From: Poecilobothrus nobilitatus
Taxonomy: Eukaryota > Arthropoda > Insecta > Diptera > Dolichopodidae
DNA length: 64,000 nucleotides
NCBI GenBank assembly: GCA_947095535.1
Contig: OX352772.1
Coordinates: 220,798,988 to 220,862,987 of the forward strand
Direction of reading: 5' to 3'
Shown here: in pieces, positions 26,766 through 43,190 of the stretch
Position numbering within the stretch: position 1 is the first letter of the stretch
How the letters are laid out: each line of letters starts with the position of its first letter
Notes under the pieces: model-generated
Databases searched by the model: none
What the model was told of the DNA's origin: nothing
What the model saw: the letters and a program-made list of their open reading frames with translations, nothing else
Program-made: the position numbers and the translations under genes

Positions 26766-27043
26766 AGTAGTAATAATATGTACGTTCTAGGACTGTCAAA
26801 AGACGTCACATCAAATTTGACAGTTAAGGTATTATGTAATAGAAATTGGAGGTGGAATAATGGAATTGAATTTTCGTTTCTGAAAGTGAATAAAAACGAT
26901 GGTATCAGCGGAGAACTTGGGTTAGGTGCAGAAGCTGGGGCTTGAAGCTGGGACTAGAAGCTGGGGCTAGACACATAATTGCTCTACAGACACTGTAATT
27001 GTTCTACAACTTTGAATAAATATTGACATCTCTTCTATTCAAA
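26766..27043 (+). repeat. Left terminal inverted repeat of the Polinton
   Basis: Matches the inverse of 42,875-43,190, with substitutions and a central indel. The outer 170 or so bases match best (ATGTACGTTCTAGGACTGTC and onward). A GCTGGGGCT-rich mini-repeat sits at about 26,930-26,972, and the inner end (TGAATAAATATTGACATCTC) matches again. The short open frames in both repeats (26,754-26,945 plus and 42,933-43,178 minus) are mirror images of each other and need not be genes. Confidence 0.9.
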
Positions 27044-27561: not shown

Positions 27562-27951
27562 TGACGTCAAAGGACATTCCTTTTTTTAAAAAGATTATTT
27601 ATATTTAAGATAAGTAAGAAAGAGGTTATAGATTTATTCGAGTGGTTGGATGTTTCAGATTCTTCTGAAGAAATCGAGGAGCAGGAAGATAACATTTTAG
27701 ATTCTTCTGAAGAGGACGAGAGTGATGAAGAGAAGATAAAAAAGAGAGTTAAGTTCAATTTAAAACCGCAGATACATATATTATACAAATGGAATACTGC
27801 GTATAAATTAGCTCGACAAAAATATTGGAAATTCATAGCACTGGATCGCTATAGATTCAAACAAAGAATTCAAAATACCAATGATATTATATGTGAGATT
27901 CTAGATAGTAATCATCGGAAACAAATTTTTAATGAAAGATTTTCTAATTAA
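27562..27951 (+). CDS. Polinton-borne GADD34/PPP1R15/DP71L-like PP1 regulatory protein
   Basis: Likely role: dock PP1 and direct it to phosphorylated eIF2alpha, reversing the host shut-off of translation. The unbroken part is 27,646-27,951 (101 residues). Order seen: an acidic Ser/Glu/Asp region (residues 4-32), the RVxF-type motif RVKF (34-37), then HILYKWNTAYKLARQKYW (44-61), ALDRYRFKQRI (65-75) and SNHRKQIFNERF (88-99) at the end. These blocks are the shared core of PPP1R15A/B, African swine fever virus DP71L and herpesvirus ICP34.5. An ATG at 27,562 starts MTSKDIPFFKK but is one frame away across a T run, so the true start may be there with a later indel; the open part itself begins with TTG. 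It is the first gene inside the left inverted repeat. The family call is from motifs, the function is inferred. Confidence 0.7.
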
Positions 27952-28414: not shown

Positions 28415-28675
28415 TTTTATAAGGCGTAGATAAAGATTTATATCTAGGGCGTAGATAAAGATTATTAGGTAGGTTTATAATTATGATATTGTGTTTAGGT
28501 TCGATCCTAGTTCTATGCTCTTACTCAGTGAAGATTTTTTTTATTTTTAACACTTATCTACACCCAAAATTGCAGTGTTTTTTTAATTTTATACTCAAAA
28601 TTGTATAAAAGGTTAATCTTAATATGAAAAATGTCATAACCCGATTAGATTATTAAGTAGAAGCATCATAATGTT

Positions 28676-29397
28676 TTGGCTGAGAACATTGTACATGGTT
28701 ATAAATATTGTATTTGTGGTCGGAAGTGGGCTTCAATCAAAATAATTCATTGGAAAATATTTCATAATTTTTTGGAGGTTTATATAACTCCAGAGGGTGG
28801 GGAAAAAATTTGTTTATTTAAAATTAGAAATGGTGAGTCATTAACTATCAAATTTGATTTATCTCCTTTGGATTCGCAACATTTAAAAATCGAAGTATAT
28901 GGTGGTGATATTACCATTATTGGTAAAATAAGAGATTCAAGAAATAAAAAAAAGGAAATACCTAATCATTTTCATACTGATTGCCCATTTGCTGAAGAAG
29001 ATGATTGGGAAATGATTGAGAAGAATATTTCAAAAGTACTATCAAAAGATAAGAAAAAAGCAATTATGCAAACTATTGAATCATTGTCAATTAAAATAAA
29101 TGAATATGAAGAAAATCAAAATGAACTGAAAAACAATGATAGGCAAACGAATTGACGATGGAATTATATTTATAGCATCAATAGAGAATATGTATAATGA
29201 AAAAAATAATAAGTCAAAAATTGGTGACGTGCTAACTAATTTTAGAAAATTATTTAAAACTTTAAAAAAGGGAATATTTAGATTATATGGAAGCTTATTC
29301 AGATGGAAGAGATAGATTTTTGCCGCTCTTTATGTACGTTTGCTCTATTATAAGTCAAGTAAAGTTTGTACATAATAAAGAAATTTCTGAAAAATAA
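28676..29397 (+). pseudogene. Polinton cargo gene of about 240 residues, unknown function
   Basis: The longest frame is 28,676-29,155 (159 residues); it has no ATG near its start, so the 5' end is uncertain. It reads as a globular protein with beta-rich stretches (NGESLTIKFDLSPLD, LKIEVYGGDITIIGKIRD), then an acidic EEDDWEMIEKNISKVL helix region. Coding-like sequence continues in the next frame from ATG 29,136 (MIGKRIDDGIIFIASIENMY) and then, after another shift near 29,285, as DYMEAYSDGRDRFLPLF with a stop at 29,397. I read this as one gene with two frameshifts. It lies in the block between the PPP1R15-like gene and the integrase. I do not recognise the family. Confidence 0.5.
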
Positions 29398-29487: not shown

Positions 29488-30077
29488 TGAAAACGATTGT
29501 TCATATTCTGTTTGTTAACTATTCAATCAAATTCCGCTCCAATTTCTAATATTAGATTAGATGAATCAGCATTTGGGAGCACTTACTTTAATATACTACT
29601 TCCAAATAATGAGACCGTGAAAGTAAATTTATCAGTCCAGCTATTAAAACATGTAATTTCACCAGAATTAAACAAAGCAACAACAACAACAGTAGCATCA
29701 ATAATTACTTTGGGAGTAGATGAGCAATTACTTAGAGATAAAGCTGATTCAGTACCTCAATATGTTTCTATAGATGACGCTATTGAGGCTTTTATTGTGG
29801 AATTATAAATAGCAAAAATATATTTTACAGACATTTTTAATTGGAATATGATAATAATAAAGATATTCATATAAGATGTGAATGTGATAGCAATTTTAAA
29901 CAAAAGGCTCTCGCAATTAAATGTTTAGAATATCGTGAAGTATTAGCAGATAGAATTTTAAGTAATGGAGAGGTGGAAACAGTTCCTATTATAGATGCAG
30001 ATTATAAATCAGACTACACTATACTTGATTTGCGAAACATAATACGAAAAATATCATATCAAATGGAAATTTCTTAA
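29488..30077 (+). pseudogene. Polinton cargo gene, unknown function, possible signal peptide
   Basis: An ATG at 29,488 begins MKTIVHILFV, a hydrophobic lead typical of a signal peptide. One frame away, 29,497-29,808 continues the hydrophobic stretch and reads SNSAPISNIRLDESAFGSTY and ISPELNKATTTTVASIITLG. A second frame, 29,841-30,077, reads HIRCECDSNFKQKALAIKCL and ends ...ISYQMEIS. The two frames may be one protein of about 190 residues separated by a frame change near 29,820. A secreted or envelope-associated product is possible but unproven. Confidence 0.4.
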
Positions 30078-30148: not shown

Positions 30149-30968
30149 TTATAATAAATCTTTTTTATTTATTCATGAATTATGATTAACAGAAAATCCT
30201 AACCATTTAACAAAAATTTTATTATCTCTAGTTTTAAGAATTTTTTCAATCAAAAACACATGTTTTTTTTCAGTTTTTAACAATTCATATTCATAGAACC
30301 CCCCTTGTATGGGTTGACCTTGATAATCTTCCAGTAAATATGTGACACAGTTAGTGATTTGAACTTTTCTTATTTTAAATACTTCCGTTGTCTAATGTTG
30401 TTATTCGAACTGAATCCGCAATTTTAAATTTGCCCGGCGGAGATATTTTTATATGATTGTATACAGTTTTAAGTAAATTATTGGCATTATGTTTTCTAAT
30501 TAACTTAATCCATTTGTAATTACCATTAAAACTGAACTCTTTCTACATTTTTTCTTTCAAAGTTCGATTAAAACTTTCTACAATAGATGCTTTTAATGTG
30601 CTAAATGTTGGATAATGATTTATTTGATATTTATCCATCAATTTTTTGAATATTTTATTAAAAAATTCTTTCCCGTCATCGGTTTGTAAATTTTGTGGTT
30701 GTCTTTTAGAAGTTTCAAAAATATTTTGCATTGCTTGTGAAACATTCTCTAAAGTTTTTCTTTTTATAGGGATCGCCCATGCATATTTGGAGAAAGTATC
30801 AATCACAGTTAATAAAAATTTAAAAACTTTATTCTCTTTAGAATATGACCCCATTTCTACTAAATCAGCTTGCCACAGATCATCAAATCCCTTAATTATA
30901 ACTCTACGTCGTTTAATATTCCTCCGAGCTGGCTTATGCAATTCATCGACAACCTCTTTTTTACTCAT
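30149..30968 (-). pseudogene. Polinton integrase (rve core plus C-terminal chromodomain)
   Basis: Joins element ends to host DNA. Frame 30968-30543 holds the retroviral-type core: LHKPARRN and DLWQADLVEM (first catalytic Asp), FLLTVIDTFSKYAWAIP, LQTDDGKEFFN (second Asp) and ASIVESFNRTLKEK (Glu), with about 33 residues between the last two. Below 30,543 the reading passes a stop, then NYKWIKLIRKH and PPGKFKIADSVRITTLDNG (the SH3-like part), a frame change near 30,390, and FLIEKILKTRDNKIFVKWLG, a chromodomain of the kind found at the end of Polinton integrases, with an in-frame TGA just before the end. The N-terminal zinc-binding part is missing or lost upstream of 30,968. Confidence 0.88.
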
Positions 30969-31069
30969 TTTAAATAAAACAAAAATAAATTTTCAATACA
31001 ACAAAATATATTCTTTATTTATTTAAATATATATAATATAACAATATTAGAAATTTTTTTATTTTTTTT

Positions 31070-31332: not shown

Positions 31333-31809
31333 TTAATTAAATCTAAGTCGTGCATTAATAAATCCAATTGGTTTTTTAACTTGAAATTCAATAAAATCAT
31401 TCATTTTTGAAAATTTTTCATTTAACATAGCAGAAAATTTGATGTGGATATTCTCTAAACTATCTTGCATTTTTTCTTCTAAAAGTCTTAATTTTTCTTT
31501 TGCTAATTTAAGTTCTATAGATATTGCTGTCTCTGTATGTTCAAACATTTCTCCTATGTAGTTTTTTATTAATTCTTTGTGAAAGAAAATTTGGTTATTC
31601 ACAAATGTTTGCGTTGCTGCATCATTTCCGTTAACTGGTTCTTGAACATTTAATTTTACATTTGAACATAAATTTGAACATAAAATTTTGTTATTTAAAT
31701 CATAATTTCCTTCGGAAGTTAATTTGAAACCTATACCGGGAGGACCTTCAGTATGTAATTTTCTAGAAGTAGATGAAGTCATGCTACGTCCAAACTTATC
31801 TAGCGGCAT
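31333..31809 (-). CDS. Polinton coiled-coil protein (MPLDKFGR start)
   Basis: 158 residues, intact. It starts MPLDKFGRSMTSSTSRK, a short conserved-looking basic N-terminus. A middle part with GIGFKLTSEGNYDLNNKILC follows, then a long amphipathic coiled coil from about residue 75 (KELIKNYIGEMFEHTETAIS onward) to 145, and KKPIGFINARLRFN at the end. Proteins with this start lie next to the integrase and WDD genes in insect Polintons. It may be a structural or spike-related protein, but no function is established from sequence. Confidence 0.65.
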   Translation of the reverse strand: MPLDKFGRSMTSSTSRKLHTEGPPGIGFKLTSEGNYDLNNKILCSNLCSNVKLNVQEPVNGNDAATQTFVNNQIFFHKELIKNYIGEMFEHTETAISIELKLAKEKLRLLEEKMQDSLENIHIKFSAMLNEKFSKMNDFIEFQVKKPIGFINARLRFN

Positions 31810-31840
31810 TCTGATTTTTACTGATTGCTAATGTAAAATG

Positions 31841-32807
31841 TTATTGAATTATATTTGCTTCTCTCAATTCTTCAATTATAGATACAATTGTTATGATTAT
31901 TGTTACCAGCTGTTTCTGATGCAATTAAAATCCTTAATCAATCAACTAACTCATTAGAATCATCCCAATAAATATATTGATTCGATTGATTTGTAAAATT
32001 TAATTGAATTCTTGGTGATTTAAATAAAAAGTTAGTAAAATTTTTTTTTGAATAACATGAACCAGTTTTTTTATGTCTAGTGTTGTAATCATGTTCATAT
32101 AATTTTCTTAATATATTCTTATATTTAAAACCTTTATTCCCTTTTATTTGTTCTAAATGATTATAATTTCTTCTATGTGTATTTGTTTTGTTAAGTATTT
32201 GATGGTATGTACTTAAATCACTTTCAGTATAGTTTATAGGTTTTTTTTTAAATATTAATTCATATAGACCATTAGTTCCTTCAAAAACTTCATTATCAAT
32301 CAACATATTTTTACTAATTTCATCTATTTTGAAATTAGCATGCCCAAGTTTTCGAACATTTAATGAAACATTAAAATAGGGGCCATATGACCTATCAAGT
32401 TCTGACTTGTTAAAAACAGGAAATTGTGAAATTGATGATTCATCACTGAAATTATCAATTATAGATGGTATTTTAAATTTTATAGTATTCGGTGTTGAAG
32501 TTTTAAATTTGCTGTAAGAATTACTTTTGTTGCTAGGTGTTTTAGTTTCCTGCATGAATGACTTAGTCATTCATCTAGTATTATTATCATCATCATCAGG
32601 CGATTTAATTTCAGGTTTGATAAAGTTACCTGAAAATTGTTATTGTTGTTTAACAACATTCGTTAATTCTTTCAATGGTTTTATAATTGGAGTAAATGCT
32701 TCTTGTCGATTAAGATCTTCTGATAGCTTTGCAACTTTTAAAAATTGAAATTTCTTTTTTAAACTTTTTCGAGTTTTAATTAAATTTTTCATAAGTTGTT
32801 CATCCAT
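31841..32807 (-). pseudogene. Conserved Polinton protein ending in a WDD...ELVD motif (unknown function)
   Basis: From ATG at 32,807 (MDEQLMKNLIKTRKSLKKKF) the coherent frame runs through an N-terminal helix, a TAA stop near 32,640, a second stop near 32,575, then 32570-31938 (210 residues) with SYGPYFN, GTNGLYELIFKKKP, LRKLYEHDYN and YIYWDDSNELVD. After a further stop the end reads LRILIASETAGN and, in another frame, IVSIIEELREANII. A protein with this ending occurs widely in insect Polintons beside the ATPase. Its job is not known; a virion role is possible. At least two stops and one frame change show decay. Confidence 0.7.
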
Positions 32808-33255: not shown

Positions 33256-33355
33256 CTTTAAACCAGTAGAAGAATCGTTGTTTTAAATGATATTAATGGA
33301 TTTCTTTGAAAGGTGTTTAGTATTTGATTAACTTCCTTAAACTAAACTACAAATC

Positions 33356-34204
33356 ATGCCTGACAATAATAAATATTCAAATATTAATAAAAAATCTGTT
33401 AAAGGAAGAGGAGTTGTTAATTCTTTAATAAATAAATTGCCATTTGAAGCTCATTTACCTCGTTATAATTATTGTGGACCTGGAACAAAGCCGGAAAAAC
33501 GATTAGCCCGAGGTGATAAAGGAATTAATCGTATAGATGGCGCTTGTCGTGATCATGACATAGCATATTCTCAAAATACTGATCAAAATAAACGTCATAT
33601 AGCTGATAAGATACTTGTAGAAAGGGCTTGGCAAAGAGTCAAAGCTAATGATTCTGGTTTAGGAGAAAAGGCGAATGCTCTTTTAGTTATAAACGCTATG
33701 AAAGCTAAAGTTAAGTTCGGTATGGGGTTGACAAAGAAAACTGTAAAAAAACAAAAACAACAAAAAAACAGAAAAAAACAACAAAAAAACAAAAAAAATC
33801 AATTGAAAAATGTTATAAAACAAGCAAAAACAGTAGTTCAGACTTTAAAAAAGCCCATGAATGATGGAAATATTATAAAAATAGCTTTGCATGCAGCTCG
33901 AAAACTTTCAAAAGGACAAAAAAATGCAATTGATACACCTCGAATTATTCCAGTGCCTAAAATTGGTGGTATTTTACCTTTAATTCCAATATTTGCAGGC
34001 TTATCGGCTGTTGGAGCACTTACAGGTGGTGCTGCAGGAATAGCTAAGGCTCTAAATGATGCTAAAAGTGCGCAAAATCAGTTAAAAGAAAGTGAACGTC
34101 ATAATAAAATGATGGAAGCAATAGCATTAAAAGGGGGTAATGGATTACACTTAAAACCATATAAAAAAGGGTTAGGTCTTTATTTGAACCCAAAAAACCA
34201 TTAA
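33356..34204 (+). CDS. Phospholipase A2 / core-like protein of the Polinton
   Basis: 282 residues from ATG 33,356, intact. The N-terminal third is a parvovirus VP1-type PLA2: YNYCGPGTKPEK (calcium loop, residues 37-48) and GACRDHDIAY (catalytic His67-Asp68). In parvoviruses the domain breaches the endosome during entry. A Lys/Gln-rich basic middle (TKKTVKKQKQQ onward, 125-165) follows. A conserved Gly/Ala-rich hydrophobic segment (GGILPLIPIFAGLSAVGALT) and a GLGLYLNPK tail resemble adenovirus core/pX-like cleaved peptides seen in adintoviruses. The protease frame follows directly, out of frame by one step. This is one of the best preserved genes in the element. Confidence 0.88.
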   Translation: MPDNNKYSNINKKSVKGRGVVNSLINKLPFEAHLPRYNYCGPGTKPEKRLARGDKGINRIDGACRDHDIAYSQNTDQNKRHIADKILVERAWQRVKANDSGLGEKANALLVINAMKAKVKFGMGLTKKTVKKQKQQKNRKKQQKNKKNQLKNVIKQAKTVVQTLKKPMNDGNIIKIALHAARKLSKGQKNAIDTPRIIPVPKIGGILPLIPIFAGLSAVGALTGGAAGIAKALNDAKSAQNQLKESERHNKMMEAIALKGGNGLHLKPYKKGLGLYLNPKNH

Positions 34205-34566
34205 ATAAGCTACACAAAAAACCACTTACAAATTATGATTTAGAAAAATTTGGTAAAAAATACTTGAAACATTTTCGAGGGGTTTTTATGAGAGACAATT
34301 TACCTGCAAAAAAGCCTTGGAAATTTGAATGTGGTATAATAAACTTAGATAATTCTATTAGAAATGGAACACATTGGGTAGCTTATTTTAAAAATGCAGA
34401 AATAACGCACTATTTTGATAGTTTTGGGAATTTACGTCCACCATTAGAAGTTATTAAATATTTAGGTGATAAGCTTATTTATAATTATAATAAATATCAA
34501 AACATTAATACATATAATTGTGGTCATTTATGTTTAGAATTTTTATTTCATATTATTAAAAAATAA
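34198..34566 (+). CDS. Adenain-like cysteine protease
   Basis: Processes capsid precursors in adenoviruses and Polintons. The frame is open from about 34,198 (PLNKLHKKPLTNYDLEKFG); the first ATG inside it is at 34,288 (MRDNLPAKKPW), which leaves a short protein. Catalytic elements in order: GTHWVAY (His), HYFDSFGN (Asp) and YNCGHLCLEF (Cys in NCGH). The upstream frame has no ATG and abuts the PLA2 gene one step out of register. So either the two were once a fusion and an indel separated them, or a start has been lost. About 120 residues is close to the usual length of the core domain. Confidence 0.85.
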   Translation, partial: PLNKLHKKPLTNYDLEKFGKKYLKHFRGVFMRDNLPAKKPWKFECGIINLDNSIRNGTHWVAYFKNAEITHYFDSFGNLRPPLEVIKYLGDKLIYNYNKYQNINTYNCGHLCLEFLFHIIKK

Positions 34567-34900
34567 AGCAAAATTATCAGTAAATAAAACATAATTAAAC
34601 AAAAATAATTTTTTTATTATTAGTCTAGCTTTATTAAAACTAACCTACATTAATAATTTTGTTCAAGTTCAAGGTTATTTCTTTCTTTCTATTTGAATAA
34701 AAAGAAACATAAAACTATCTGATAAAGAATACTTAGAATTTAGTTGTAATACAAGAAATTTAAAGAAAAATTAGAATTAGAAATATTATATAGGTATACA
34801 TTTATTATGATGATGATGATGATGATGATGATGTATTAGCCTTGAAAATCTATAAAAGCAGAATAGATTCACGAAATATCTCATTATTTCAATTAAGGAC
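34567..34900 (+). repeat. Intergenic gap with (ATG)n microsatellite
   Basis: About nine ATG/TGA triplets at 34,806-34,833. The remainder is AT-rich. It separates protease and minor capsid gene and probably contains the latter's promoter, although TATAAAAGCAG at about 34,851 is only a TATA-like hint. Confidence 0.7.
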
Positions 34901-35575
34901 ATGTCAATAAAATTAACTTTAAACGGAAATTGTTCCATATTAACCACTAATTATTTTCCTCCTATAGACCTAAAGTGGGAACAATATACAAGTGGTTTAG
35001 TAGATCTTCAAACATATAATTCAATACCGAATATAGATGAGAAAAATAATAAATTTATTATTGATAATAAATCCATTTTTCTTCCCACAGGTTCGTATGA
35101 AATTGAAGATATTGAAGCATTTCTCAGAAAAAAATTGAATATTGTTAAAACAGACAATGAGAAGTTAATTATAAGACCTAATAATAATACATTAAAATGT
35201 GAAATTTTTGCTGATAAGGAAATTGATTTCGAAAGAGAAGATACTATTGGTAGGTTATTAGGTTTTAGCAGAAAAAGATTATTGTCAAACAAATGGCATA
35301 CTTCAGATCTATTTGTTGATATTAATAATATAAACATAATAAGAGTGGAATGTAATATTATTTCCGGAACTTATATTAATGGAGCAGAAGCTTAACGTTA
35401 GTCCTGGCTATAAAATAATTGAAGTTCCTAATAATGTAATTTATTTACCAGTAACCGTTAATCAGATAAGTTCTATTACTATAAAACTGCTTGACCAGAA
35501 TGGTAATTTAGTTATTTTTGTGGAGAAACAATAACAATTAGATTGCATTTAAAGCCTCAAAATGCTAACATTTAA
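34901..35575 (+). pseudogene. Minor capsid (penton-type, single jelly-roll) protein
   Basis: Forms the five-fold vertices in Polinton/adintovirus capsids. From ATG 34,901 the frame runs 164 residues with IDLKWEQYTSGLVDLQTYNS, IFLPTGSYEIEDIEAFLRKK and IGRLLGFSRKRLL, up to INGAEA. After a frame change near 35,390 it continues with VSPGYKIIEVPNNVIYLPV and ISSITIKLLDQNGNLV, then another change and ETITIRLHLKPQN to a stop at 35,575. GYKIIEVPxxVIYLPV and ITIRLHLKP are hallmarks of this protein. It overlaps the next start by 14 bases. Confidence 0.85.
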
Positions 35576-35754: not shown

Positions 35755-36961
35755 ATGGAGCTTTTTAATGATCCTGTTTTTAATGAAACTATAACTAGCG
35801 CTCAATGGCATTCATATTCACCATACACAAGTTCATTTGGATTAAGTGATATCATTAAAATACAAATACAAAATCAGAATTTAAATATATTACCTTCAAC
35901 AAGTCTAATTTATATAGAATAATATGCATCAAAACATGATGGATCAGCTGTTACACATACTAAACTAGTTAATAATGCTATACCATTTCTATTTGATGAA
36001 ATTCGTTATGAACTTAATGGTAAAGAAATTGATCATAATCGTAATGTTGGTATAACTTCAACATTAAAAAACTGTATTTCACTCAATCAAAATGAAAGTA
36101 CCGCTTTATGTAATGAAAGTTGGTCACCTAATGAATAAATTAAAATGAATGGACTTTATTTCAATTTTTGTGTACCCTTAAAGAGATTATTAGGATTTGC
36201 AGAAGATTATAAAAATATTATTCCAAATGCAAAACATGAACTGATATTAACTCGCTCTCGATTAAATGATAATTCATTATTATGTAATGCCACTAATGCT
36301 GCTATTGAAAAACTGAAAATTCTTATTACAAAAATATATTGGAAGGTTCGACATATTAACTTAGGTGATAATCTTCAATTAAATTTATACAAAAGTATTC
36401 AAAAAGGTTCGGTTATGAAAATTCCTTTTTGGAAATTGGGAATTAATGAGTATCCTACATTACCAGCAGGAATTACACATCATATTTGGAATGTTAAAAC
36501 AGCTTTACAACTTGAAAAACCTCGGTTTATTATTTTTGCTTTACAAACTGATAAACAAAATAAACTTGAGGAAGATCCATCGAAATTTAATTATTGTGAT
36601 ATTGAAAATATAAAAGTATATTTAAATTCTAAATCATATCCATATGAAGATATGAATTTAGATTTTGGTAAAAATCGTTATGCATTAGCATATGAAGCAT
36701 ATTCGAATTTTAGAAGCTTCTATTATAATAGTTCAATATCAGAACCTTTAGTTCATGGGACAACTTTAAAGATGATTCTCCAATCTTCATAATTGATACT
36801 CGTTATCAAGATGATAAATTTAAAATGGGTCCAGTTGATGTCAAAATTGAATTAAAGACTTTAAAAAAAATCCAGACAATACTACAGTTTATTGTCTTAT
36901 TTTACATGATCATTTAGTGGAATTTAAACCGTTAACAGGGGAAGTTAACAAAATTATTTAA
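35755..36961 (+). pseudogene. Major capsid protein (double jelly-roll)
   Basis: Builds the capsid shell in Polintons. From ATG 35,755 (MELFNDPVFNETITSAQWHS) the frame has in-frame stops near 35,920 and 36,135, the latter before a 215-residue piece (36,145-36,792) with LYFNFCVPLKRLLGFAEDYK, INLGDNLQLNL, WNVKTALQLEKPRFIIFALQ and LAYEAYSNFRSFYY. Frame changes near 36,780 and 36,865 precede the end, HDHLVEFKPLTGEVNKII, with a stop at 36,961. The order of motifs (LGFAEDY, EKPRxxIxALQT, YxxFRSFY) is that of the Polinton capsid protein. Length of about 400 residues is slightly short. Confidence 0.85.
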
Positions 36962-39021: not shown

Positions 39022-42000
39022 TTATTTTATTGCAAAATGACCCCAAGCCAATGTGTGTACATTATCATCTAAAACATATCTTTTATCATCGTGGTAACAT
39101 AATGAAATTTTATTTAAATTTTGTGTATACAAATTATGAATCTTACTTCTAAAACTTAACATATTACTTTTAAAAAGTTTTCTTTTATATAAACATTCTC
39201 TGTAATCACTTAAAGTGAATAATTTTACAATATTTCTTTTGATACATTTTGCTTTAACTATAACATTTTTATTTTCAATATCAATCGAATACATTTTCGC
39301 TTTTAATCCAATAAATTCTTTAATTACACTACCATTGCACTCATTCTTCATCATACCTAGAACCTTTTTATTTTTCAGAGTAATTTTATAAGAATTATCA
39401 ATTGAATATTCTGATGTATCATAAAACTTTTCTATGTCAGATTTAATATCTTCGTAAAAATCTTCTGTTGTAATGGTATATATAAATGAGTCAGTATCCA
39501 TATAATTCAATTTAACATTTTTATTAAATTTTGGTTTAATATAATCATAGTGGAAATCATACATTTTGTGTTTTGAAATTTCTAATACAGAAAAACCTAC
39601 ATATAAAGTCTTATTATAGTATACATTAGTTCTATTCAACTGAGTTGCAACCATATCACTTGTAAATTTAGCTAAACTGTGAAAATTTGGTTTAGATATC
39701 AAAGCTCTTGTCCCCAAGACTTGTCACTGACTTTCCCAACTTGTTACAATTTTAATATTTTTTCACTTATCTATATTTTCAATAGTTTTTCCATATATCG
39801 CATTATTTAACAATTTAAATGTATTTTTTTCAAAATTATTTTTAGCTAGTGTTCGGTGATAGTTATTTAAATCTATATAACTTTTCAACCAACAATCTTG
39901 GTTAAAGCTCAAAGCTCGGTGAATCTTTTTTAATATTAATCCATGTTTTACACATTGTTGAAGGTTTGTATAATGGATATTATATTTCTTTTTTTCTTCT
40001 AAACTGGTAATTAGCTTTATACTTTTCATTTTTGAATGTTTTTTATTTTCTGGACAAAATGGAAGATCGTTGTGATCATCATGTTTATCGACAGGATATT
40101 CTAATTCTACTTCCTATATTAATGTATCCTATATTTGAATCAGAAGGTATATTCAAAAAATCAATATTTTCTATTTTATCACACCAGTAGAAATTAGATA
40201 TAGGTAAGAATTTAGACATAGCAAACCCATACAGATTGTTAACATCTAAATATGTTATAAAATTTGAAGGTTTTGTTTGAACACTGTCAAATTCCATCTC
40301 TAACACCCCTTTTGAAAAAATTATACATATTAATATCAGTTAGTAACTGAAGTTCTACTTTTGTAATATTTGAGCATAGCATCCCAACTAAAACCAGGTA
40401 ACGTATAATATTGGCATACATCTAATTCATATATCTGCTTACATACTTTTCGAAAATTATCGAATACATCTGCTAATAGAATAACATCTGTTTTTAAATA
40501 TATTTCTAAATAGTCTTTAAAATATTTGCATTCAAATGTTTCCCAAACAGTCTTTCCATGTTGATAGTCTTTATCTGAAATTGTTGTTTTCGAAAATTTA
40601 TTATCAAAACTTCTTTGACAAGGTAACCCTGTTTGATACAATTTTTCAAAAGAATTTAAATATTCATAAGGAAATATCCCCTTTCGGTTCACTAAATTAA
40701 ATTTATTTTCGTTTGGATACATTTTCTTTAATATGACATAAACCGAAATGAATCTAAGAACCTCAACTCTATAGATTCCCCTTCATCAACCTCAATCCAT
40801 TTTGATAAAGAAATATACTTATTCATAGGAATAACATTAATTTTACCCAAACATTTTATTAAGTTTTTAATAAATAATAAATAATTTTAATTAAAATTAC
40901 AAAATTAATGCGCTGGTCCTCGATATATTCCGGTTAAATGACAATGGTCTGCAACCATATTTTCATCTAACATTTCATTACAAACATGACAATTTATAAA
41001 TGAATTATTCGTTCTTCATCTGTAAGAATTTTCATTGTAATAATATTTTTATAATACTTACTATAAATTTGTTTCACATCTTCTATTAATTTCTCCAAAA
41101 AAATGCTATCTATGCAATCAGTTCCAGTATCCTAATACATCCTAAACATATTAGAGTTTTGATCGAAAGATGGTTTGATGTAATATGCCATCGCACATGG
41201 AATATGTTCTTGAATGTTTGTTGTTGTTGATGTAGATGAATCTGGTAAACATGTTGTTATATCTTGAATAATGCATTCAAAGTCTGCATACACGACAAAT
41301 GGTACATCCATTTTTTTGTATTAATTATTGTATTAATTATACATAATTTTGTATTAATTTTCTATTATTCTTTGTAATTTGCGAATGTAATAGTCGAGAA
41401 ATATTTTTAATCCAAACATGTGTTCTCTGATCCTCTTGTATTAATAGCAATTTAATATGATGAAGTTTCTCTTCTTTTGTACATTGAAATGGACCTACAA
41501 TTTTGTAGAATGTATTTTGAGATGTTTCTTGTTTTTCAAAACCAAAAACATTGATACTAATTGTTACTAATTGTTCAAATTTTTTTATATCAGCAACTTT
41601 CATAGGAAATTCTAAAACATCAAAATTTAGTATAATATTTTGTAGTTGTATTTTATTCGATTGTATATCAGCAATCCCTTATGTTTGTGTTCGTACAAAG
41701 CTGATATTATACTCCATTTAAAACAATACTCATCAGCGTTCATCACGTTGATACAAGCCTTTTTAGTCTTCAAAAATTTTGCTAACGGAAGATATTGTGA
41801 TCCTCGTAAAGGTTTGTATTGATTAATGTTTACTTCTAAATGTATTATTCGATGTAGAGCCCAACCACTATCCCTTTCTTGAAATTATTCACTTTTAACA
41901 ACAAGACACTGCAATAATTTATCTAACTTTTCTAATATTTCGGTTGGTTGTAGTATAATTTCCATTTTCGTATTGAAAGACTTTATTGATAAATTAAAAT

Positions 42001-42874: not shown

Positions 42875-43190
42875 TATAAGAGATGTCAATATTTATTCGA
42901 AGTTGTAGAGCAATTCCATATGTGTGAGATCATCACATATTCACATTGATATCGGTTAACGAAAGCAAAACTTCAAGTATTTTTATTTTATTTTTGTTCA
43001 TATTCCAGCTTCTAGCCCCAGCTTCTGCACCCAACCCAAGTTTTCCGCTGAGACCATCGTTTTCATTCACTTTCAGAAACGAAAATTCAATTCCATTATA
43101 CCACCCCCAATTTCTATTACATAATACTTTAACTGTCAAATTTGATCTGACGTCATTTGACAGTCCTAGAACGTACATATTATTACTACT
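42875..43190 (-). repeat. Right terminal inverted repeat of the Polinton
   Basis: Inverse of 26,766-27,043. The inner end begins at GAGATGTCAATATTTATTCG, the outer end at 43,190 is ATTATTACTACT. A segment of about 80 bases near 42,925-43,005 has no match in the left copy, so the two have diverged by an indel. Confidence 0.9.

Follow-up and report, generated by a model that had tools for sequence, protein, structure and literature searches.

A PPP1R15/GADD34-like gene carried by Polintons in the genome of the fly Poecilobothrus nobilitatus

GADD34/PPP1R15 restarts protein synthesis after stress, and the best-known viral relatives of the gene keep translation running in infected cells. Here, we report a PPP1R15/GADD34-like gene carried by Polintons in the genome of the fly Poecilobothrus nobilitatus. 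The window, i.e., the whole stretch of 64,000 nucleotides that was analysed (GenBank assembly GCA_947095535.1, contig OX352772.1, positions 220,798,988 to 220,862,987 of the forward strand; coordinates below count from its first letter), holds one such element, and beside its left terminal inverted repeat (TIR) lies the open frame in question (27565..27951, plus strand, stop to stop). The reading that we hold with good confidence is that a Polinton lineage took this gene from an animal host and kept it, and that its product would bring PP1 to eIF2alpha.

The frame measures 128 codons from stop to stop and 101 codons if counted from a TTG at 27646. Against the Pfam family PF10488 (PP1c_bdg; curated cut-off 26.1 bits), the 101-residue frame scored 26.4 bits (E-value 6.5e-6), the 72-residue core alone (27733-27948) 26.7 bits, and the full 128 residues 25.6 bits, just below the cut-off. 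The acidic stretch scanned alone matched no family which, together with the score of the core alone, indicates that the core match is not due to the acidic stretch. The hidden Markov model search of the 101 residues, which an earlier note made from the letters alone had proposed as a check on PPP1R15 membership, therefore returned a match above the cut-off and not the lack of a significant match that the note had warned of. The motif order described in that note, an acidic N-terminus followed by RVKF, WNTAYKLARQKYW, DRYRFKQRI and SNHRKQIFNERF, is likewise present in the plus-strand frame. The conserved core comprises 68 codons from RVKF to the end (27745..27948); RVKF itself (27745..27756) is the RVxF docking motif for PP1 and aligns to residues 555-558 of human PPP1R15A, and WKFIALDRYRFKQRI (27826..27870) aligns to Trp582-Ile596 of the human protein, a segment with PP1, G-actin, and eIF2alpha contacts according to excerpts of PMC8500838. 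At the DNA level, the pattern WxxxAxDxxRFxxRI occurs once in the window, at this frame, and in none of 100 shuffles. The nearest PDB sequences have modest E-values: PPP1R15B (0.0019), PPP1R15A (0.0029 and 0.034) and, in fourth place, DP71L of African swine fever virus (0.053). A single-sequence AlphaFold model of the frame (a single long helix over residues 27-99, predicted template modelling score 0.37) is not used as evidence.

An ungapped alignment to human PPP1R15A covers 51 residues, 17 of them identical, and 11 of the 13 mapped human positions are kept (V556, F558, H565, L567, R578, W582, D588, R591, F592, R595, and I596); H691, R692, and F696 of PPP1R15B are also identical in the window frame. 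The contact roles to PP1 (RVxF, Arg pocket, Trp) are given for many of the mapped residues in excerpts of PMC4394352 and PMC8500838, and the same excerpts name F592, R595, and R612 of human PPP1R15A as G-actin contacts and R587, D588, R591, and R594 as eIF2alpha contacts. In the window frame, the RVxF, phi-phi, Arg-pocket, and Trp positions for PP1 are all present (V35, F37, H44, L46, R57, and W61, aligned to PPP1R15A), and the equivalents of the G-actin contacts are kept as F71 (F592), R74 (R595), and R91 (R612), the last being placed by ungapped extension of the PPP1R15A alignment and by alignment to PPP1R15B R692. Of the four eIF2alpha contacts, D588 and R591 are retained and R587 and R594 are replaced. 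The frame belongs by sequence to the PPP1R15 family and, judging from its residues, may work like the viral members.

The gene is not confined to the window. A genome search over 943.8 Mb gave at least 151 matches; 150 of 2111 candidates were scored, and the counts are lower bounds. We examined 50 loci, i.e., the 30 best, which are of the window type and include the window, and 20 hand-chosen from lower groups. In 26 of the 30 window-type loci, a TIR with the orientation of the gene is present on its 5' side at a distance of no more than 1.3 kb, and in all 20 of the chosen lower-group loci an integrase begins on the same strand within 150 nt 3' of the gene; the gene therefore occupies two different places in related Polinton subfamilies. 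Neither feature was found in four of the 50 loci within the stretch examined, which leaves Polinton context in 46. A Met-led frame is uninterrupted to the end in 35 of the 50 loci, and most open copies encode 106-125 residues. Six loci have no Met-led frame (Met lost in L009, the window, and in L053; a stop intervening in L026, L027, L037, and L038), five are interrupted, and four were unparsed by our script, among them L036, which is open by eye. Two copies from different chromosome-size contigs, L040 and L041, do not differ at any of 6300 bases (100% identity), indicating that the family moved recently. Some copies have features of their own: the acidic N-terminal stretch is repeated in L049-L052, with frames of 158 codons (three loci) and 238 codons (L051) from Met, and several of L039-L058 have, in front of the gene, a leader similar to the first part of the integrase gene (ATGAGTAAAAGAGAG...), which looks like a copy of the integrase leader. 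Short upstream open reading frames precede the gene in 38 of 42 parsed loci; we draw nothing from them, ATGs being frequent in such A+T-rich DNA.

A second group of PPP1R15-like genes was found in a genome search with the Pfam family, in which 150 of 1569 candidates were scored. All 150 lie above the PF10488 cut-off (34.6-42.7 bits), they form a sequence group unlike that of the window, and their open frames are most often 83 codons long. In L059, L067, L069, and L073, the gene adjoins an MVKQV frame, with an ATPase of the A32 kind near; the ATPases of L059 and L073 exceed the Pox_A32 cut-off, and L073 has another frame below it. Window-type Polinton gene pieces lie close by in L073 and L060. 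It is likely that this ATPase-adjacent group also rides on Polintons, the pieces belonging either to one element or to nested ones. L064 is listed among the second-group loci as well. Four neighbouring copies, L060-L063 (C1:97.41-97.44 Mb), have equal match scores and a further diverged PPP1R15-like gene; L060 and L061 have a stop codon in the gene in common, and among the four only L060 is directly followed by penton-like and capsid pieces of the window type.

The core is under purifying selection between Polinton subfamilies. The ratio of nonsynonymous to synonymous substitution rates (dN/dS) was calculated for 11 representatives of the 50 loci, giving 55 core pairs, of which five with dS of 0.15 or less were dropped; the pairs share branches and are not independent. 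The median over the remaining 50 pairs is 0.20, and the window copy compared with the seven integrase-adjacent representatives gives 0.14-0.21. Simulated neutral evolution has medians of 0.79-1.20 and 5th percentiles of 0.39-0.58, and reaches 0.21 or less in 0, 0, and 0.1% of simulations under the three transition biases used. Elsewhere in the element, dN/dS is 0.17 for the integrase (7 of 11 representatives usable, 21 pairs), about 0.45 for the 164-residue neighbour at 28661-29155 (6 of 11), and 0.39 for the acidic N-terminus of the gene. The nearest sibling pair printed, window versus L013, gives 0.98 on five differences. Please note that the evidence of selection comes from comparisons among copies and not from the openness of the window frame. 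The earlier note had pointed out that this frame stayed open while most structural genes decayed; this is right for the letters, and it is weak as evidence of function because the start codon of the window copy is lost, and 10 random substitutions leave a frame of 128 codons open in 46% of simulations. We also tested, and rejected, the idea that the frame has simply survived by luck in an element that is dead: its openness is unremarkable for this one copy; the signal of selection comes from the comparisons between subfamilies.

Where the gene came from was approached through the host gene and distant relatives. A host-gene pattern built to avoid both Polinton groups matched two places, L070 and L071, the latter being a damaged Polinton-type copy. 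L070 has a frame of 197 residues whose PPP1R15 core scores 26.1 bits, at the cut-off, with an ELLEWLD stretch and then an acidic region before the core, and no Polinton gene match or terminal repeat was found within 9.5 kb of it; it is probably the host PPP1R15, at a locus separate from the Polintons. A single-sequence protein search with the window frame was empty at E-values up to 1, and an alignment search found P0001 (53% identical). A profile of the Polinton gene matches three proteins, P0001, P0037, and P0038, which from their protein shape appear to be Polinton genes. Scans of IMG/VR with the gene and with the capsid protein gave no confirmed relative; eight IMG/VR pattern hits were dropped, their frames being without [RK]VxF in the stretch printed. 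Core identity to the window copy is 42/68 for P0001, 41/68 for P0037, and 33/68 for the L070 host gene. In the maximum-likelihood tree of the core, the window group falls with P0001 and P0037 (approximate likelihood-ratio test 94.6, ultrafast bootstrap 88), and the host gene, P0038, the second group, and the vertebrates are set apart from this clade. A clade of the host and the window group alone is not rejected by the approximately unbiased (AU) test (p 0.067); the grouping of P0001, P0037, and both Polinton groups into one clade is just rejected by it (p 0.049) and not by the Kishino-Hasegawa (0.056) and Shimodaira-Hasegawa (0.17) tests. We favour an old capture, perhaps two, which is not proven.

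These data also bear on the possibility, named in the earlier note, that a fragment of host PPP1R15 recently landed in this single copy of the element. The host-like gene and the window frame do have the core and a DELLEWLD-type stretch in common, and the AU test leaves the clade of host and window group standing. The tree with the host gene does not, however, place the window group as such a recent insertion, the core of the window frame has more residues in common with P0001 and P0037 than with the host gene, and a gene confined to one copy is already refuted by the at least 151 matches and by the Polinton context (a TIR or an integrase) of 46 among the 50 loci examined; we regard the chance of this origin as close to nil.

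Several results weigh against the reading that we prefer. The window frame has no ATG, with I-S-K-K-E-V where most relatives have M-S-K-x-E-V, and the window copy of the gene is probably inactive. Only two of eight window-group relatives scanned against PF10488 exceed the cut-off (L054 and L013), the other six scoring 18.4-25.2 bits, and of the three related proteins P0037 (26.6 bits) lies above it and P0001 (19.5) and P0038 (19.6) below. Among the pairs between other subfamilies, those of L043 with L054, L055, and L045 have dN/dS of 0.37, 0.42, and 0.55, inside the neutral range. At L078 (G000:C1:33691350-33692050), where the integrase is that of another subfamily, the neighbouring genes stand without the PPP1R15-like gene between them, which shows that it is not universal in this place among Polintons, and the integrase score of this locus is common to many rows of the genome integrase search; it is one of two integrase loci inspected, the other, L079, having the gene before the integrase, and the 35 integrase rows (of 150) that have a gene match within 600 bases were picked for it. 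Finally, the window copy departs from human PPP1R15A at two of the eIF2alpha contacts, with L for R587 and Q for R594, and L at the R587 position is constant in all 10 aligned window-group rows. At this position, R stands in the host gene, in the second-group rows aligned, and in the damaged copy L071, and L in P0001 and P0038.

The low scores could be taken as a sign that an acidic frame with a basic patch resembles the PPP1R15 family by chance, the window frame being only 0.3-0.6 bits above the Pfam cut-off and six of its eight relatives below. A sibling copy, however, reaches 31.7 bits and L073 of the second group 42.8 bits, and the absence of the DNA pattern from all 100 shuffles, the 11 of 13 mapped positions, and the selection on the core make coincidence so improbable as to be negligible. 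As to the changed contacts, R587 to L across the 10 window-group rows is the result that speaks most for an altered substrate contact: the protein might dock PP1 and direct it to another substrate, e.g., a viral or innate-immune phosphoprotein. We consider this unlikely, though it is the alternative to be taken most seriously, as the equivalents of F592, R595, and R612 as well as D588 and R591 are kept, all of them needless for generic PP1 docking, and the second-group rows aligned retain R587. A PP1 decoy, which would keep PP1 from host regulators without directing it to any substrate, is more improbable still. Mutants of DP71L that still bind PP1 lowered reporter translation, possibly by PP1 sequestration (excerpts of PMC5346070); the Polinton core, however, is conserved between subfamilies, including the residues of its C-terminal actin/substrate half.

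The reading that we prefer remains a PPP1R15 gene captured by Polintons. The earlier note had proposed that the Polinton lineage captured the PPP1R15 function; the capture is borne out by the many copies, the two groups, the purifying selection, and the separate, probable host gene, and the function is the part that we infer, i.e., binding of PP1 and actin, eIF2alpha as the target, and a benefit against the eIF2alpha kinases, which in insects are PERK and GCN2. The Polinton protein is taken to act like the herpes simplex and African swine fever virus relatives, by analogy with them and from the kept contact residues. The RVxF, Arg-pocket, and Trp contacts would let it wrap around PP1, the C-terminal helix would bind G-actin and present PP1 to the N-terminal domain of eIF2alpha, and phospho-Ser51 would be removed, possibly allowing translation to go on while the element makes DNA and capsids. 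A further-reaching version, in which PPP1R15 was taken at least twice (by the window group and by the ATPase-adjacent group), came to lie in three gene positions under selection, and acquired a derived change of eIF2alpha contact in one group, is tentative, and we would rate it somewhat below an even chance.

It has long been asked whether animal Polintons are infectious viruses or no more than transposons. A gene of host origin under purifying selection between subfamilies, some of which were recently mobile, points to a virus-like life that affects the host cell. If the further-reaching version is true, these elements face the integrated stress response in the manner of infecting viruses, and Polintons would be, now or until very recently, live viruses that carry a counter-defence gene in an animal of today. 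The gene also offers a protein of about 115 residues that can be tested directly, and the host gene and the two Polinton groups together form a natural series of PPP1R15 cores that vary at two eIF2alpha contacts.

The element around the gene is a decaying Polinton. Polintons (Mavericks) typically have terminal inverted repeats of at least 100 bp and a 6-bp target-site duplication. Here, the left TIR (26766..26951, plus strand) and the right TIR (43005..43190, minus strand) are 186 nt long and 95% complementary, in agreement with the earlier statement that the gene lies beside the left repeat of a virus-like element. The flanking six bases, GGCTTT and TTTTTT, are not an intact target-site duplication, which may have decayed, the arms differing by about 5%. 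The next gene after the PPP1R15-like gene is a plus-strand frame of 164 residues (28661..29155) with no match over cut-off (weak Hsp20 resemblance, 15.2 bits vs 20.8); 21 of the 30 window-type loci contain a match to it. It is followed on the same strand by a 103-residue frame (29497..29808) with matches in some relatives. On the minus strand lie a retroviral-type integrase (30543..30992, 149 codons; rve, PF00665, 56 bits), another 164-residue Polinton frame (31333..31827), and a 210-residue Polinton frame (31938..32570); in the integrase-adjacent subfamilies, the PPP1R15-like gene sits between the equivalent of this second 164-residue frame and the integrase. The plus strand then carries a phospholipase A2-like protein (33341..34204; PF08398, 48.1 bits), an adenain-like protease with a weak match (34165..34566; PF00770, 14.4 bits, below the cut-off of 21.3), a frame without family match that we label as possibly penton-like (34856..35395), and part of a double jelly-roll major capsid protein (36139..36792; PF21738, 219.8 bits, profile positions 66-261 of 316). 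A piece of DNA polymerase type B lies on the minus strand (40336..40782; PF03175, 34.9 bits over 25.8), and a probable further piece (39022..39723, minus strand), without polymerase family match, is assigned to the same enzyme by its YMDTDS motif. The integrase, phospholipase A2-like, capsid, and polymerase matches all exceed their own cut-offs, and no A32-like packaging ATPase was found among the window frames scanned. We call the element decaying because its integrase is cut to 149 codons, open integrase frames in other copies having up to 428, and because only one of the polymerase pieces matches a polymerase family.

Two side observations are recorded here. The octamer TGACGTCA, which is of the CRE/ATF type, occurs twice in the window, just before the gene (27562-27569) and in the right repeat (43148-43155); two or more copies occurred in 2 of 100 shuffles. 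At the contig ends L075 and L077, satellites of 336 and 497 bp were seen, the third of the three ends analysed being without an array, and no TTAGG-type array was reported at any of the three. Long satellites are associated with fly telomeres, and these arrays, together with the presence of three contigs of chromosome size, would suit a lower fly.

Compared with PPP1R15A (GADD34) and PPP1R15B (CReP), the Polinton protein has the same core order and spacing, from RVxF through the Arg pocket and Trp to the actin/eIF2alpha helix; it differs in being without the long N-terminal part, in the changed R587 and R594, and in being carried by a mobile virus-like element. The host gene L070 shares with the window frame the core and the EWLD stretch before the acidic region, and differs in being longer at both ends, in keeping R587 and R594, and in its surroundings, Polinton features not being found in the 9.5 kb. 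Excerpts of PMC10807198 and PMC5346070 describe the herpes simplex virus and African swine fever virus relatives as recruiting PP1 to dephosphorylate eIF2alpha. DP71L and gamma34.5 (ICP34.5) are, like the Polinton protein, short viral proteins with the same core, and DP71L is the best PDB match of the relative P0001 (0.001); these two belong to other virus classes, whereas the Polinton gene is present in many genomic copies. The family also has members among the genes of insect DNA viruses, namely coGV-gp036, a granulovirus gene, and a baculovirus PPP1R15A homologue; these belong to baculoviruses and not to integrating elements such as Polintons. The former appears in an alignment in PMC4394352, and the latter is considered most likely of lepidopteran origin (PMC5704228). 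The Drosophila Polintons/Mavericks (adintoviruses) share the gene set of integrase, DNA polymerase B, protease, and capsid; PP1 and eIF2 are absent from the main text of the paper on three Drosophila-associated adintoviruses (PMC8363768), and GADD34, PP1, phosphatase, and eIF2 from the main text of a preprint (PMC11071296). A published Polinton with a PPP1R15/GADD34-type gene was not found in the literature searched, an absence limited to those searches. PPP1R15 homologues in viruses are already known, and the Polinton-borne gene is an addition to them.
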